Assembly: GCF_000166135.1 (NCBI RefSeq)
Contig: NC_014666.1
Span: 6,138,001 to 6,202,000 of the forward strand
From: Pseudofrankia inefficax
GTDB taxonomy: Bacteria > Actinomycetota > Actinomycetes > Frankiales > Frankiaceae
Direction: 5' to 3'
Length of the DNA stretch: 64,000 bases
The position numbers and the translations under genes are program-made. Of this stretch, positions 40,225 through 45,555 are shown in pieces. The notes under the pieces were generated by a model. That model saw only the letters and a list, made by a program, of their open reading frames with translations. It did not search any database and had not been told where the DNA came from. The number at the start of each line of letters is the position of its first letter. The first letter of the stretch is position 1.

Positions 40225-41112
40225 ATGGCGCAGACCCTTGACGTCCTGACGGTTGCCGCCTGCCTGCGGGACGGCGTCGGCGGCAGTCCCACGGCGGTCA
40301 TCACGGGCAGCCACGAGCTGGGCGACGCGGACCTCGCGCGCCTTCCCGCCCGGCTGGGCGCCTCCCATCTGGCGGTCGTGGAGCCGGGCGACCGCGTCCG
40401 TGCGCTCCGCTTCTTCACCAGCGCCGGCGAGCTGCCCAACTGCGGGCACGGCACGATCGCCGCGATCGCCGTGCTGGCCCTCGCCCGCGGCGGGTTCCAG
40501 GGCCGGCTGCGCGCGGCGGGCCGCGAGTTCGAGGCGGCCGGCATTTTCCGACCGCCGACGAGGCCGGCTGGGCCGGCGCTGTTCGACGCCTGGTTCGACC
40601 AGGGCGTCGTGGACAGCCGGTCCGCGACGGCGCCGGAACGCGAGGCGTTCCTCGCCGCCCTCGGACTTTCCCCGGACGCGCTGCACCCCGACGACGAGGT
40701 GTCGGTCGCTTCCCCGGGCCGCGAGCGCCTGCTGGTCCCGGTCGCGGACCGGTCCGTCCTCGCCGCCCTGCGCCCCGACCAGGACCGGCTCGCCGACGCG
40801 AGCCGCCGCCACGGACAGCTCGGCTGTTTCGTCTACGTCCCGCCGTCCCCCGCGACCTCCGCGGCGGCGCGGATGTTCGCCCCCGCGATCGGGGTGCCCG
40901 AGGACGTCGCGAACGCGAACAGCACCGGCTGCCTGGCGGGCCATCTCCTCGTCACCGGTCGGGATCCGGCCGTCACCGTCGACCAGGGTGACGCGCTCGG
41001 CCACCCGTCGACGGTGCGGGCGACCGCGACGCGGACCGCCCGCGGCATCGCGACCCGCGTCGGCGGGGCCGTGCAGGTGCGGCGCACCAGTCGCATCGCC
41101 GGCTCGCTCTGA
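40225..41112 (+). CDS. PhzF-family protein lacking the catalytic Glu
   Basis: A 295-residue protein with the two-lobe diaminopimelate-epimerase-like fold of PhzF: LDVLTVAACLRDGVGGSPTAV, FFTSAGELPNCGHGTIAA and a second-lobe counterpart NANSTGCLAGHLL. In active PhzF isomerases the Glu in S-E-T-x-F is the acid/base; here the aligned stretch is GASHLAVV, without Glu. Isomerase activity is thus doubtful. A proper PhzF with SETTFLL is encoded at 44650-45555. The start is ATG 40225. Confidence 0.82.
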   Translation: MAQTLDVLTVAACLRDGVGGSPTAVITGSHELGDADLARLPARLGASHLAVVEPGDRVRALRFFTSAGELPNCGHGTIAAIAVLALARGGFQGRLRAAGREFEAAGIFRPPTRPAGPALFDAWFDQGVVDSRSATAPEREAFLAALGLSPDALHPDDEVSVASPGRERLLVPVADRSVLAALRPDQDRLADASRRHGQLGCFVYVPPSPATSAAARMFAPAIGVPEDVANANSTGCLAGHLLVTGRDPAVTVDQGDALGHPSTVRATATRTARGIATRVGGAVQVRRTSRIAGSL

Positions 41113-41246: not shown

Positions 41247-42788
41247 TTGACCGCCTCCCTGGACACCGATGGCCTCGTCGCCGCCGGCGACCTCCCGTCC
41301 GGCGGCCTCGCGCCGGACCCGGCCGCCGCCGGGCTCGACGGCGCCCGCGGCCGCACGCCGCTCGTGATCAAGCTCTTGGTCGGCGCCACGTTCACGGTCA
41401 TCCTCAACGAGACGATCATGACGAACGCCGTGCCGCGCCTGATGGTCGACTTCGACATCAGCCCGCGGGCCGCGCAGTGGCTCTCGACGGTGTTCATGCT
41501 GACGCTGGCCGCGCTCATCCCGGTGACCGGCTGGTTCCTGCAGCGGGTGACCACCCGGAGGGCGTACGGGGTCGCGATGGCGACCTTCTGCGTCGGGACG
41601 GTGATCGGCGCTGTCGCGCCCGTCTACCCGGTCCTGCTGGTCGGCCGGGTGGTCCAGGCCGCGGGCACCGCGGTGATGATGCCGCTGCTGATGACGACGC
41701 TGATGACCGTCGTGCCCGAGCGCGACCGCGGCCGGGTCATGGGCACCGTGACCATGGCGATGTCCTGCGCCCCGGCGCTCGGCCCGGCCGTGTCCGGCGT
41801 CATCCTGCAGCTCGGCTCGTGGCGGCTGATCTTCGTGTTCATGCTGCCGATCGCGGCCGTCGTGGGCCTCGGCGGGCTGCGCCTGCTGGAGAACATCGGC
41901 GAGACCCAGGCCACCCCGGTCAGCTGGATCAGCGTCGTGCTCGCGGCGGCCGGCTTCGGTGGCTTCCTGTTCGGGCTCAGCGAGGCCGGCGCCCTCAACA
42001 GCGTCTACGTCGGGCTGATCATCGTGGGTGGCCTGGCGCTGGTCGCGGCGTTCGTGGGCAAGCAGCTGCGCCTGCAGCGGGTCGGCAGCCCGCTGCTGGA
42101 CCTGCGGACCCTGAACCACCGCACGTTCAGCGTCTCGCTGCTGCTGCTCGCCGCGGTCGACATGGCGTTCCTCGGCTCGATGTTCCTGCTGCCGCTGTAC
42201 CTGCAGGACACCCGCCACCTCAGCTCGCTGGAGACCGGCCTGCTGGTGATGCCCGGCGGCCTGGCGATGGGCGCGCTCGGCCCGCCGGTCGGGCGCCTCT
42301 ACGACCGGTACGGCGCCCGGCCGCTGGTCATTCCCGGCGCCGCCTGCTCGGTCGTCGCGCTCGGCACGCTCAGCCAGCTCGGCGCCCACACGCCGTACCT
42401 GCTGCTGCTGGCCGCGCACATCGTGCTGATGGCCTCGCTGGCCGCCGTCATGACCCCGGTCTTCTCGGTCGGCCTCGGCGACCTGCCGACCGACCTCTAC
42501 GCCCACGGCAGCTCGCTGTTCGGCACGATCATGCAGGTCTCGGGTGCCATCGGCACCGCCCTGCTGGTCGTCATCTCCCAGTCGCGCGAGAGCCACCTGG
42601 TCCACGCGGGCGTGGCGTCGGCCGAGGCCACGGTCGGCGGCCTGCGCTGGGCCTTCGCCGGCGGCGCCGTCTGCGCGATCGCCACGACCCTGCTCGGCCT
42701 GCTCCTCCCCCGCACCACCGGCCGAACCACCGACCCCGACGCCACCGAGGCCTCGTCCGAGGCCGAGCTGGATCTGGCGCTGGGCTAG
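41247..42788 (+). CDS. DHA2-family MFS drug exporter (14 helices)
   Basis: A 513-residue protein. The motif LNETIMTNAVPRLMVDFDISPRAAQWLSTVFMLTLA is spread over helices 1-2 as in EmrB/QacA-type pumps; GRVVQAAGTAVMMPLLMTTL and the motif C-like MAMSCAPALGPAVSG are present. The TTG at 41247 has GAAGGA six bases upstream. The stop TAG is part of a 47-bp sequence that copies the 3' end of the phzF gene at 44650, marking the left border of an inserted island. Probably exports a drug or metabolite. Confidence 0.88.
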   Translation: MTASLDTDGLVAAGDLPSGGLAPDPAAAGLDGARGRTPLVIKLLVGATFTVILNETIMTNAVPRLMVDFDISPRAAQWLSTVFMLTLAALIPVTGWFLQRVTTRRAYGVAMATFCVGTVIGAVAPVYPVLLVGRVVQAAGTAVMMPLLMTTLMTVVPERDRGRVMGTVTMAMSCAPALGPAVSGVILQLGSWRLIFVFMLPIAAVVGLGGLRLLENIGETQATPVSWISVVLAAAGFGGFLFGLSEAGALNSVYVGLIIVGGLALVAAFVGKQLRLQRVGSPLLDLRTLNHRTFSVSLLLLAAVDMAFLGSMFLLPLYLQDTRHLSSLETGLLVMPGGLAMGALGPPVGRLYDRYGARPLVIPGAACSVVALGTLSQLGAHTPYLLLLAAHIVLMASLAAVMTPVFSVGLGDLPTDLYAHGSSLFGTIMQVSGAIGTALLVVISQSRESHLVHAGVASAEATVGGLRWAFAGGAVCAIATTLLGLLLPRTTGRTTDPDATEASSEAELDLALG

Positions 42789-42831
42789 ATCCTGACGGTG
42801 CCGGCGATCGTGGTGTGGGCGTCGCCGCCGA
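42785..42831. repeat. 47-bp direct repeat, left copy (island border)
   Basis: Starts CTAGATCCTGACGGTGCCGG and is identical to 44650-44696 except for one base (C for T at position 12). It reproduces the last 47 bases of the phzF gene, including its stop, fused to the MFS stop codon through the shared CTAG. Looks like a remnant attachment site. Confidence 0.85.
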
Positions 42832-42873
42832 GGCCAGCCTCGCCTGACCTCGGCCGCTCCGCGCCATGAGCAT

Positions 42874-42946
42874 GATTGCTAGTTGGGCCCTCGAACGGGT
42901 ACGACCCGGCCCGATTCACGACCACCCGAGGGTCAAAACGGCGATC
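42874..42946. repeat. 73-bp inverted-repeat element, copy 1
   Basis: The arms GATTGCTAGTTGGGCCCTCG and CGAGGGTCAAAACGGCGATC pair imperfectly (14 of 20 by strict complement, more with G-U). The same element occurs at 48738-48810 and 54414-54486, also 73 bp. The right half, including ACGACCACCCGAGGG, is the best conserved part. Confidence 0.7.
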
Positions 42947-42979
42947 ACTGTGCCGGGTCGACCTTTCGCGGGCGCAGCA

Positions 42980-43996
42980 CTAGTCCGGGAGTTCGGCGTA
43001 TCTCTCCTGGCAGGGAGAGCAGACGGGGAGCCTTCCGTGGTCCTGGGTGGGAACGAAGAAGGCTCCGCACAGCGCCCGGACGGCACGGCCCTCGATGGTC
43101 TTTCCCGCAAGGTGTTCACGATGGGCGTAGTGGCTGTGACTGCCCGCCTCGGATTCGGCGAGCTCACGGGCAGTGACGATTTTCTCGAGTTCGGCGAGGC
43201 GGGCGCTCCATGCCCCCGGTTCGGCGATGTTCGTGTACGAGTCCTTGTAACGGTCCCATCCCTGTTCGGGCGGACTCAGGCAGATAAGCGCTCGCACCGT
43301 GAGTTGCCACGAAATATTGCTACCTGCGTAGGCTGAGACCGGAGCGACCTCAAGCTCGATTTCATCAGCTCGATAACCGGGCTCGCGCACCAGTGCGACG
43401 GTGAGAGTAAGAAGAGCAAGTCTGCCCTGTTCCGGCCATGGATGATGGATATCAATACGGGCCGAGCCGCCGCCGTGTACCTCGCGGAGCGCGTCGAGCA
43501 CCTGCTGCTGGACGGTCAGTTCCCATTCGGTGACGAGCCGCGCCGCGGTCTCCTGCTTGAGGAGGCGTTGATCCTCAGCTGTAGGCAACCAGCGGCTCGG
43601 ATCGCCTTTGTCGCATTCCCTCTTGACCCGCATGTAAAAGTCGTCATGGTCCTGGTGCTCGCCCTTCGCCAGCCCAGCGACCAGCAACCAGTGAACTCCC
43701 GTCGCGCGGTCCGCCCAGACGCCGCCCCGCCACTGCGCGGTCTTGATCTCCAGGAGCGGCAGCTTTGAGCTGGCCGCGATGGGTCCGACAAAGTGGTCGT
43801 CGGCAGCACGGACACCGAAGGACTCGGCCGCTTTACGAACGATCGGATGTGGCAGCTCGCTGAGCGGGTGCAGCGACTTGAGCATGCCCTCGGCCAGGAG
43901 CCTCCTCGGCCTGGGAGACTCCCAGCCGTCGGCGAGATCCTCCGCGAGGAGGCGGAGGGTGGGCCGGGCACGACGGCTATGCACACAGACAATCAT
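42980..43996 (-). CDS. DUF3039-like zinc-ribbon protein of the island (candidate toxin)
   Basis: About 338 residues from the ATG at 43996 (no ribosome-binding site is visible; the start is uncertain). The middle (LPLLEIKTAQWRGGVWAD, VHWLLVAGLAKGEHQDHDDFY, then a helical segment) is reminiscent of RelE-like toxins by pattern only. The C-terminal ~65 residues end in a zinc ribbon, RALCGAFFVPTQDHGRLPVC and SPC, resembling DUF3039. GC content is clearly lower than that of the neighbours, a sign of transfer. The upstream gene on the same strand encodes an excisionase-type HTH protein. Function unknown; a toxin-antitoxin or defence role is inferred from context only. Confidence 0.6.
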   Translation of the reverse strand: MIVCVHSRRARPTLRLLAEDLADGWESPRPRRLLAEGMLKSLHPLSELPHPIVRKAAESFGVRAADDHFVGPIAASSKLPLLEIKTAQWRGGVWADRATGVHWLLVAGLAKGEHQDHDDFYMRVKRECDKGDPSRWLPTAEDQRLLKQETAARLVTEWELTVQQQVLDALREVHGGGSARIDIHHPWPEQGRLALLTLTVALVREPGYRADEIELEVAPVSAYAGSNISWQLTVRALICLSPPEQGWDRYKDSYTNIAEPGAWSARLAELEKIVTARELAESEAGSHSHYAHREHLAGKTIEGRAVRALCGAFFVPTQDHGRLPVCSPCQERYAELPD

Positions 43997-44045
43997 GCCA
44001 AACGCGATGTGTGAGGTTGCGAGCCCAACCGCCTTCGCCCCGAGG

Positions 44046-44444
44046 TCAGAGCAGGTCGGCGATCTCGTCAATCGCGTCGGCGTGCGTCCTGTCCTGCGTG
44101 GCGAAACGCTCGGCGAGCTCGCGCCGGTCGTGCTGTCGCTGGGCCTCGAAGGCGAGCAGGTCGCGCAGGTGAATGCGGCGGTCCCGGCCGACACGGTGGG
44201 AGGCGATCTCGCCGCGGTCAAGGAGCTTGTAGAGGTGAGTGCGGCTCATGCCGAGCCTTTCGGCGGCCTGGTTCGGCGTCAGAATGACGGAGTCGTCGAC
44301 CACGGTGATCGTGGCGCCGTCGCGGATGCAGCGGCTGACGCTGAGGAGCAGGTCCCGCAGTTCGGGACCTGCGGTGGTCCGCGCATATCGTTCGAGTTCG
44401 TCGAGCTGCTCGGTCGGAATGTTGGCGGTTCCAAGGGCCTGCAT
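44046..44444 (-). CDS. Excisionase-type HTH protein (candidate antitoxin)
   Basis: A 132-residue protein. The helix-turn-helix is LTPNQAAERLGMSRTHLYKLLDRGEIASHRVGRDRRIHLRDLLAF by position ~62-105, the MerR/excisionase form. The N-terminal ~55 residues are helical with TTAGPELRDLLLSVSRCI. Closely similar proteins commonly precede PIN-domain toxins in actinobacteria. Here no PIN gene follows; instead the DUF3039-like gene starts about 50 bp downstream. Two palindromes just upstream suggest autoregulation. The ATG at 44444 was used; GTG 44447 is adjacent. Confidence 0.8.
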   Translation of the reverse strand: MQALGTANIPTEQLDELERYARTTAGPELRDLLLSVSRCIRDGATITVVDDSVILTPNQAAERLGMSRTHLYKLLDRGEIASHRVGRDRRIHLRDLLAFEAQRQHDRRELAERFATQDRTHADAIDEIADLL

Positions 44445-44462
44445 CACGTCGCCGTTCCGCGA

Positions 44463-44504
44463 GCGTCGATGATCGACGCGTGACTTCAGATGTCACAGAT
44501 GACA
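44463..44504. promoter_or_regulatory. Two palindromic operators before the HTH gene
   Basis: GCGTCGATGATCGACGC at 44463-44479 (8-bp arms, one-base centre) and TGTCACAGATGACA at 44491-44504 (5-bp arms around CAGA) lie 18-60 bp upstream of the HTH gene start. Paired palindromes before an antitoxin-like gene are the usual arrangement for autorepression. Confidence 0.6.
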
Positions 44505-44649
44505 CTACCCAGGGTGGCCCTGCTTGGCAACCGACGTCCAGCGCGCGCTGCCATGCACGCGGTTGGCGGCCGTGACCTGGCCCAGAGCGGCGCTCCTCCC
44601 CTGACCACCGGTTCAGCCACCCCCCGCGCGGAAGATCCACGCGTCATGC

Positions 44650-44696
44650 CTAGATCCTGATGGTGCCGGCGATCGTGGTGTGGGCGTCGCCGCCGA
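44650..44696. repeat. 47-bp direct repeat, right copy (inside phzF 3' end)
   Basis: The last 47 bases of the intact phzF gene; 46 of 47 match the copy at 42785-42831. The two copies flank 1.8 kb carrying the HTH and DUF3039-like genes. Confidence 0.85.
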
Positions 44697-45555
44697 CCCA
44701 GACCGTCCCGCCGGTGGTCTTCTCGATGTGGACGCGGCCGCGGCGACCGAGGGCCGTCCCCTGGGAGGCGATGTAGGTCGACGGGAGGACGTCGCCGGCG
44801 AGCCACTGGGCCAGGCTCGCGTTGAGGCTCCCGGTCACGGGATCCTCGGTGATGCCCAGGTGCGGGGCGCAGAACGCCCGCACCTCGACGGCGCACTCGC
44901 CGCCTTCCGGGTAGGGCCCGACCACCCCGGTGTCCTGCTCGATCGCCGCGAAGTCCGGGGCCAGGGCGAGGACCTGCCGGGCGGAGGCCAGCCGCAGCCC
45001 GACCCAGCCGGGGCCGTTGTCGCACCATTTCGCGTCGACGACGTCGGCGGGCTTGATGCCGAGCGGAGCGGTCAGCCGGGCGAGCAGGTCGTCGTCGACC
45101 GGGCCGTCCCGCAGCAGCGGCGGCGCGGCGAACGCGAGCCGGCTGACCCCGCCGGGCACTGGCGTCGTGGCGCCGGGCGCCGGAACGGGTTCTGTGCCGC
45201 CGGGCGCGGCCGCCGGGTCGGACGAAAGCCGGCGCAGCGGCACCAGGCCCGCGGCGCACTCCTGGACGACGTGCTCGCCGCGTGGCACACCGCCGGCCTC
45301 CAGCCAGGCGTGGGCGCTGCCGATCGTCGGGTGGCCGGCGAAGGGCAGCTCGCCGCCCGGGGTGAAGATCCGCAGCCGGTAGTCGGCCGTGGGAACGGTC
45401 GGCGTGAGCAGGAAGGTCGTCTCGCTCAGGTTGGTCCAGCGGGCGAAAGCGGCCAGCTCCTCGTCACTCAGCCCGTCGGCCTCGTGGACGACCGCGACCG
45501 GATTGCCCAGGAGCCGCTCGCGAGAGAACACGTCCACCTGGCGGAAGGGCAGCAT
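44650..45555 (-). CDS. PhzF-family isomerase/epimerase
   Basis: A 301-residue protein with the full PhzF pattern: FRQVDVFSRERLLGNPVAVV, the catalytic Glu in NLSETTFLL, IFTPGGELPFAGHPTIGSAH, and in the second lobe CAPHLGITEDPVTGSLNASLAQWL. The family isomerises or epimerises small acids without cofactor; PhzF itself acts in phenazine synthesis, but no other phenazine genes are here. A Pro/Ala-rich insert lies at ~118-140. The 3' end is the target of an island whose other border carries a copy of it. Confidence 0.9.
   Translation of the reverse strand: MLPFRQVDVFSRERLLGNPVAVVHEADGLSDEELAAFARWTNLSETTFLLTPTVPTADYRLRIFTPGGELPFAGHPTIGSAHAWLEAGGVPRGEHVVQECAAGLVPLRRLSSDPAAAPGGTEPVPAPGATTPVPGGVSRLAFAAPPLLRDGPVDDDLLARLTAPLGIKPADVVDAKWCDNGPGWVGLRLASARQVLALAPDFAAIEQDTGVVGPYPEGGECAVEVRAFCAPHLGITEDPVTGSLNASLAQWLAGDVLPSTYIASQGTALGRRGRVHIEKTTGGTVWVGGDAHTTIAGTIRI

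Follow-up and report, generated by a model that had tools for sequence, protein, structure and literature searches.

The stretch of Pseudofrankia inefficax DNA analysed here, called the window throughout (64,000 nucleotides; contig NC_014666.1, positions 6,138,001 to 6,202,000), carries a 47-bp direct repeat around a pair of small genes, inserted between a major facilitator superfamily (MFS) transporter gene and a phzF-family gene. We consider it probable that the repeat is a duplicated phzF end left by one combined illegitimate and homologous recombination between two alleles of the MFS-phzF locus, and that the genes between the copies form a module of the toxin-antitoxin or defence kind. Site-specific integration, the route proposed in an earlier note made from the sequence alone, appears less likely than such faulty recombination between related strains.

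The duplicated phzF end and the left junction

The features on which the argument rests are as follows.

41247-42788, plus strand: MFS transporter gene (open reading frame; PF07690, E 9.9e-49), its TAG stop within CTAG and its 3' end fused to the left 47-bp copy
42785-42831, plus strand: left 47-bp copy of the phzF 3' end, equal to the single G031 copy and with 1 difference from that of G033
42828-42848, plus strand: remnant of a native MFS 3' end, 20/21 to the MFS stop of G031, where it reads EASLA-stop
42849-42983, plus strand: copy of a palindromic dispersed repeat, whose right-edge CTAG contains the stop codon of the DUF3039 gene
42980-43984, minus strand: 334-aa protein with a C-terminal DUF3039 domain (PF11238, E 6.6e-21; family alignment), proposed partner in the toxin slot
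44046-44447, minus strand: 133-aa DNA-binding protein of the HTH_17/excisionase type (PF12728, E 2e-13; TIGR01764, E 1.5e-13), proposed antitoxin and autoregulator
44491-44504, minus strand: operator-like motif TGTCATCTGTGACA, upstream of the helix-turn-helix (HTH) gene (motif count across loci)
44650-44696, plus strand: right 47-bp copy, the working phzF 3' end, with a T at position 12 found in neither relative
44650-45555, minus strand: phzF-family gene (PF02567, E 1.4e-50)

The near-identity of the two copies, described in the earlier note, is confirmed: they agree at 46 of 47 positions, with an ungapped score of 44, whereas the reversed right flank, used as a control, gave 14 at best. The fusion of the MFS stop to the phzF end through CTAG in the left copy is likewise plain in the window sequence. 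When the genome was searched with a 95-base query containing the left copy, the sole other match (34 bases, 85%, E 7e-4) lay in an open reading frame unlike phzF. By the code, the T private to the right copy changes a Val of PhzF to Ile.

The same locus without the island is found in close relatives. A search of 35 same-family genomes gave phzF matches at E <= 1e-40 in 22, and a close orthologue occurs only in the window's own genome, in G033 (96% identity), and in G031 (92%), the next best reaching at most 60%. Both relatives belong to the same genus, and both lack the island and have one copy of the 47 bp, so that the empty site predicted in the earlier note was found in 2 of the 2 same-genus genomes with this phzF. 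In G033, the nearer of the two, MFS and phzF share a CTAG at their overlapping stops, an arrangement also seen in the left copy of the window, and the suggestion that the two genes once converged directly is thus matched by an existing arrangement. These empty sites support acquisition of the island. In G031, the MFS gene ends differently, and a spacer of 223 bp precedes the phzF stop. Within this spacer (L067 8433-8676) are one piece resembling the phzF end and another that weakly resembles a second MFS end, as though the interval rearranged; the former covers 17 bases and was equalled in a fraction of 0.004 of 500 shuffles, and the latter matches at 17/21, a level that chance also attains.

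The left junction of the island is the most telling part of the locus. The window sequence from 42828 to 42848, which starts with the last four bases (CCGA) of the left copy, is CCGAGGCCAGCCTCGCCTGAC, and the native MFS gene of G031 ends CCGAGGCCAGCCTGGCCTGAC, with the stop codon inside; the two agree at 20 of 21 bases. In a scan of 1,794,952 positions on both strands, from which eight loci repeating the window were excluded and in which the other loci overlap, matches above 17/21 were confined to the window itself and one G031 site, the latter being present in three overlapping loci. The whole island aligned to the G031 MFS end and spacer with a local score of 38, above all 300 shuffles (maximum 37). 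These four bases, CCGA, are common to the 47-bp phzF end and the G031 MFS end, and we propose them as the microhomology of a junction with little homology, as is characteristic of homology-facilitated illegitimate recombination or of an end-joined circle. Other copies of the dispersed repeat match the 21-mer at best at 15/21, so the 21-mer is the MFS end and not the repeat's own end. Since an MFS remnant followed by a lineage repeat stands where element DNA should reach the junction in a site-specific island or cis-mobilizable element (CIME), the left end of the "island" is, judged from its sequence, chromosomal DNA of this lineage and not DNA of an element.

The dispersed repeat at 42849-42983 comprises 135 bases and is common in the window's own genome (G000) and in G033. 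An own-genome search gave 26 matches at E <= 1, drawn from 24 scored candidates of 298, and a 35-base pattern of the repeat (up to 3 mismatches) occurred 52 times in G000, the window's copy included, 37 times in G033, and once in G030; there were none in the other five genomes of the genus, and the pattern read backwards as a control also gave none. This distribution points to a putative donor of the G000/G033 sublineage. The repeat folds as RNA with a z of -2.75 (3 of 200 shuffles equally good), and Rfam gave no match at E <= 0.1 across 42700-44800, which includes the window's copy. Its stem consensus is TGATCGCCGTTTTGGCCCTC/GAGGGCCAAAACGGCGATCA, and it occupies 90 places among the loci fetched (L128-L157, L164-L238, and the window), with expansion in G000 and G033.

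A second PhzF-family gene lies at 40225-41112, directly upstream of the MFS gene, so that the transporter stands between two PhzF-like genes.

Origin of the duplication

In the model that we favour, an island-less allele resembling that of G033, with MFS and phzF overlapping at CTAG, would have met a second allele in which the MFS gene kept its native end and was followed by the dispersed repeat, the DUF3039-HTH pair, and phzF. This second allele would probably have come from a strain of the same sublineage. Its DNA, linear or circularised through its ends, would have been joined to the first allele at CCGA, which closes the 47 bp in the one and lies at the MFS end in the other, and a second junction would have formed through homology in the phzF end. 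Such an event would leave the 47 bp on both sides with no need of an integrase, and the duplicated length would simply be the distance from the phzF stop codon to the breakpoint. The locus in the window would then be a chimera, of the G033 type on the left through CCGA and of the island-bearing allele on the right from the CCGA of the MFS end. The private T would have arrived with the donor copy, and the observed state, a left copy equal to the G031 site and a right copy carrying the T, is what is expected if the right copy is donor-derived. The single copy in relatives, the CCGA identity, the MFS remnant, and the repeat copy can be read directly from the sequences; the island-bearing allele, the order of events, and the transfer are what we infer from them. 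According to passages of a study of Escherichia coli (PMC3240628), incoming linear DNA is degraded or is circularised and then integrated by a single crossover, and most of 60 aberrant clones tested had a duplication.

The principal alternative is that a tyrosine recombinase acting in trans inserted the island into the phzF 3' end, or that the island is a shrunken, CIME-like remnant without an integrase, the 47-bp copies being attL and attR. Much of the locus resembles what such insertion would leave. The direct repeats are nearly identical and lie at a gene 3' end, the phzF end is restored, and two relatives have single-copy empty sites, a combination typical of site-specific islands and CIMEs. 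The GC content of 42832-44649, said in the earlier note to be below that of the flanks, is indeed lower, at 65.8% compared with 74.8% and 72.0% in the two adjoining 10-kb stretches, and none of 622 equal-sized segments taken at 100-base steps across the 64 kb is as GC-poor. The HTH protein encoded within is of the excisionase type, and 12 matches to the tyrosine-integrase family PF00589 lie in other parts of the genome, from where they could act in trans.

Against this alternative stand the composition of the left end, which is native MFS sequence and lineage repeat, and the lack of a recombinase. The two island genes exceed curated cut-offs solely for HTH_17/excise and DUF3039; nine other open reading frames of the island (73-246 aa) gave no Pfam match at E <= 0.01, and no integrase, transposase, or relaxase was found among all of these. 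The earlier claim that the island encodes no integrase thus stands, and with it one expected component of a site-specific island is missing, although CIMEs lack an integrase by definition. None of the 12 PF00589 matches lies within the window, and the open reading frames concerned, compared by tblastn with 27 phzF-bearing loci, gave no match at E <= 1e-4. No second use of the 47 bp as an attachment sequence by another element or phage was found in the window's own genome or in two scans of viral contigs with exact 24-base patterns, which returned 0 hits; the genome-wide search proposed in the earlier note yielded neither another site nor a helper integrase within the window. The ten other loci of the gene family, moreover, have no comparable flanking repeat: within 4 kb around the pair, their best direct-repeat scores were 10-18 against 44 in the window, with reversed controls at 9-16, L078 and L079 offering fewer than 300 bases of searchable right flank. 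In three of them (L077, L080, and L081), the score is 2-3 above the single control for that locus; the matches responsible are GC-rich and lie over 2 kb away from the pair on both sides. Taken together, these results speak against the logic of site-specific insertion into a gene end that the earlier note had put forward, and we regard such insertion as unlikely.

A local tandem duplication or template switch within one lineage, in which a copy of the phzF end was placed in MFS when the island was already present between the two genes, and the island was subsequently deleted from G033 between the two copies, appears less probable still. The pieces in the G031 spacer (phzF-end-like over 17 bases; weakly MFS-end-like at 17/21) suggest that the interval may rearrange, and the fused MFS end is common to G033 and the window. 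However, the left copy is preceded by CTGGCGCTGGG, which resembles the island-free phzF end of G031 (CTGGGCGCTGGG) and differs from the right copy, so that the template of the left copy would have been island-free, and more steps are needed.

A further alternative assigns the duplication to the dispersed repeat, which on insertion would duplicate gene ends starting with CTAG, the two genes arriving later. CTAG is enriched at both edges of the repeat (29 and 34 occurrences among 112 oriented matches, where about 3 would be expected at each edge), and 2 of the 90 repeat places, L148 and L150, both in G033, are flanked by direct repeats of 17-19 bases that start with (GCG)CTAG. At the remaining places, flanking repeats do not exceed the mismatched-pair control (maximum 13), and in the window 17 bases of MFS end separate the 47 bp from the repeat. 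With such flanks at just 2 of 90 places, we retain this as a minor and very improbable explanation. The flanking repeat of L148 itself resembles a duplicated gene 3' end.

Several points weigh against the recombination model and the module reading that we favour. At 334 aa, the DUF3039 protein would be large for a type II toxin. The HTH protein matches the excisionase-type model TIGR01764 and, weakly, excisionase profiles of PHROGs (best E 2.4e-6). The MFS remnant is just 21 bases long, and its source is visible in one genome, G031. The island-bearing allele was not found in the 35 family genomes, a set in which the locus itself is limited to the window's genome and two others, and the polarity could be the reverse, with the island deleted from G033 when one 47-bp copy recombined with the other. 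Diverged matches to the dispersed repeat occur in other members of the genus (best E 4.7e-11, in G031), so the repeat is not a strict marker of the sublineage. Sliding divergence along phzF displayed no donor tract, an analysis that is uninformative here because it is at the phzF 3' end that G033 and G031, too, diverge from each other. Finally, 47 bp is short for homologous recombination, and the passages on E. coli describe true homology-facilitated illegitimate recombination as very rare, with three of four such clones lacking homology at the new junction (PMC3240628).

If the recombination model is correct, a pair resembling attL and attR, complete with clean empty sites, can form without any integrase, and programs that detect islands by direct repeats at gene ends and by empty sites may report too many site-specific elements.

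The DUF3039-HTH gene pair

The HTH and DUF3039 genes lie in tandem on the minus strand, with a gap of 61 bp if the DUF3039 gene starts at GTG 43984; in the family alignment, homologues use the equivalent start, which gives 334 aa. Our best guess is that the pair is a toxin-antitoxin-like or defence module, because the family exchanges partners, carries operator-like repeats, and lies in part in a defence context. The HTH protein would bind the repeats of its own promoter and restrain the DUF3039 protein.

A class-wide draw of 393 genomes contained 6 with matches at E <= 1e-12, counting that of the window, and a scan of genome contigs for the family gave 7 loci, two of which (L082 and L084) are, judged by length, on the same contigs as those of G027 and G203. 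Both genes are present in 8 of the 10 loci other than the window, the two others (L064 and L076) being decayed and without the HTH gene; as is usual in type II toxin-antitoxin systems, the genes thus form a conserved two-gene unit with a DNA-binding partner. The HTH gene is upstream in 7 of the 8 paired loci and downstream in L078. Both genes also occur in five plasmid records of Rhodococcus and Prescottella, and in each of the two plasmid regions opened, the HTH gene is directly upstream. By these sequence comparisons, the pair is conserved and scattered across Actinomycetota and on plasmids. Searches of phages and of viral contigs gave no relative of the DUF3039 protein.

Upstream of the HTH gene, the heptamer TGTGACA/TGTCACA is found in 8 of 11 loci (the exceptions being L078, L085, and L086). 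The loci together comprise 204,702 bp and contain the heptamer 15 times; 12 of these instances lie within the 1,790 bp upstream of HTH genes, a count for which the start of the HTH gene was set by hand in L083 and L078. In L078 (3697-5290), from a metagenome-assembled genome of Bifidobacteriaceae, the DUF3039 gene comes first and the HTH gene second, and the repeats before the latter resemble the motif but do not equal it. In L064 (G027, Frankia sp. CiP1_Cm_nod1), the decayed DUF3039 relative has lost its N-terminus, has one zinc-ribbon Cys changed, and adjoins a NERD-kinase gene and a PIN-domain gene.

Ten neighbouring proteins from four loci were scanned. Neighbours in G242, G188, and Nocardioides include a type III restriction-modification pair, a GmrSD nuclease, an OLD-like ATPase, and a PLD-helicase; three of the scanned proteins had no match, and two neighbours in Promicromonospora look like housekeeping genes, so that the defence setting is not universal. 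In PADLOC, the model mad1, which belongs to the MADS defence system, is matched by the HTH protein (E 1.6e-7) and by three of its relatives, which probably reflects only the shared HTH_17 fold.

For the 334-aa protein, profile, structure, and sequence searches revealed no known toxin fold, the structural model being weak (mean predicted local distance difference test score 56.7). This low-confidence model had no Foldseek match at E <= 0.001, no solved structure is related to the protein by sequence, and PADLOC gave no match. DUF3039 is described in a passage of PMC9425974 as possibly metal-binding, with the motif Hx(20)C...CxxC, and a motif of this type is kept in the 334-aa protein as H285, C306, C322, and C325. 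DUF3039 is also listed among domains in a passage of PMC13118837. The passages of these two papers and of PMC3240628 do not describe the DUF3039-HTH pair or the dispersed repeat.

Homologues of the 334-aa protein without the DUF3039 domain were observed in five genomes of the same family (L059-L063), each with a small partner gene other than the HTH gene just upstream; the copies in L060 are shortened, and L063 is partly masked. Like the window's pair, these share the N-terminal and central motifs and have the small gene in the upstream position; they differ in having another antitoxin-like partner, with a weak Rv0623-like match in one, and in the absence of the DUF3039 domain. The DUF3039 protein and these relatives may, although we advance this tentatively and without leaning towards it, belong to an undescribed family of toxins or defence effectors that swaps antitoxins (HTH_17 or Rv0623-like) and moves among Actinomycetota in the form of a minimal cassette of two genes, carried on plasmids and within defence islands. 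The DUF3039-HTH pair, which is scattered in its occurrence, is preceded by a conserved motif, and has an effector whose fold was not recognised here, is a candidate toxin-antitoxin or defence module.

Comparison with known systems

CIME-like remnants and genomic islands without an integrase resemble the island in the window in their direct repeats at a gene 3' end, their lack of an integrase, and the empty sites in relatives. The window differs from CIME-like remnants in its left junction, which consists of the 3' end of the neighbouring gene and a lineage repeat, and in that no second use of an att site was found.

For the gene pair, the nearest comparison is with modules of an HTH_17-type gene and a PIN-domain gene on proteobacterial plasmids. 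Their HTH proteins are 37-38% identical to that of the window over about 80% of the length, and the HTH gene lies upstream of its partner (by 2-215 bp), as in the window. In the neighbourhoods opened, the HTH relative preceded a PIN-domain gene in three of four, the gene table of the fourth being possibly incomplete. The window's partner, by contrast, is the 334-aa DUF3039 protein, which has no PIN match.

For the duplication itself, the closest parallels are the single-crossover integration of end-joined linear DNA and homology-facilitated illegitimate recombination, as described in the passages of PMC3240628. The window event differs from these in being reconstructed from sequence in an actinobacterium, with a homology of only 47 bp and a donor allele that was not found. 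In common with them, it would combine one homologous junction with one illegitimate or end-joined junction, leave the homologous segment duplicated, and need no recombinase.

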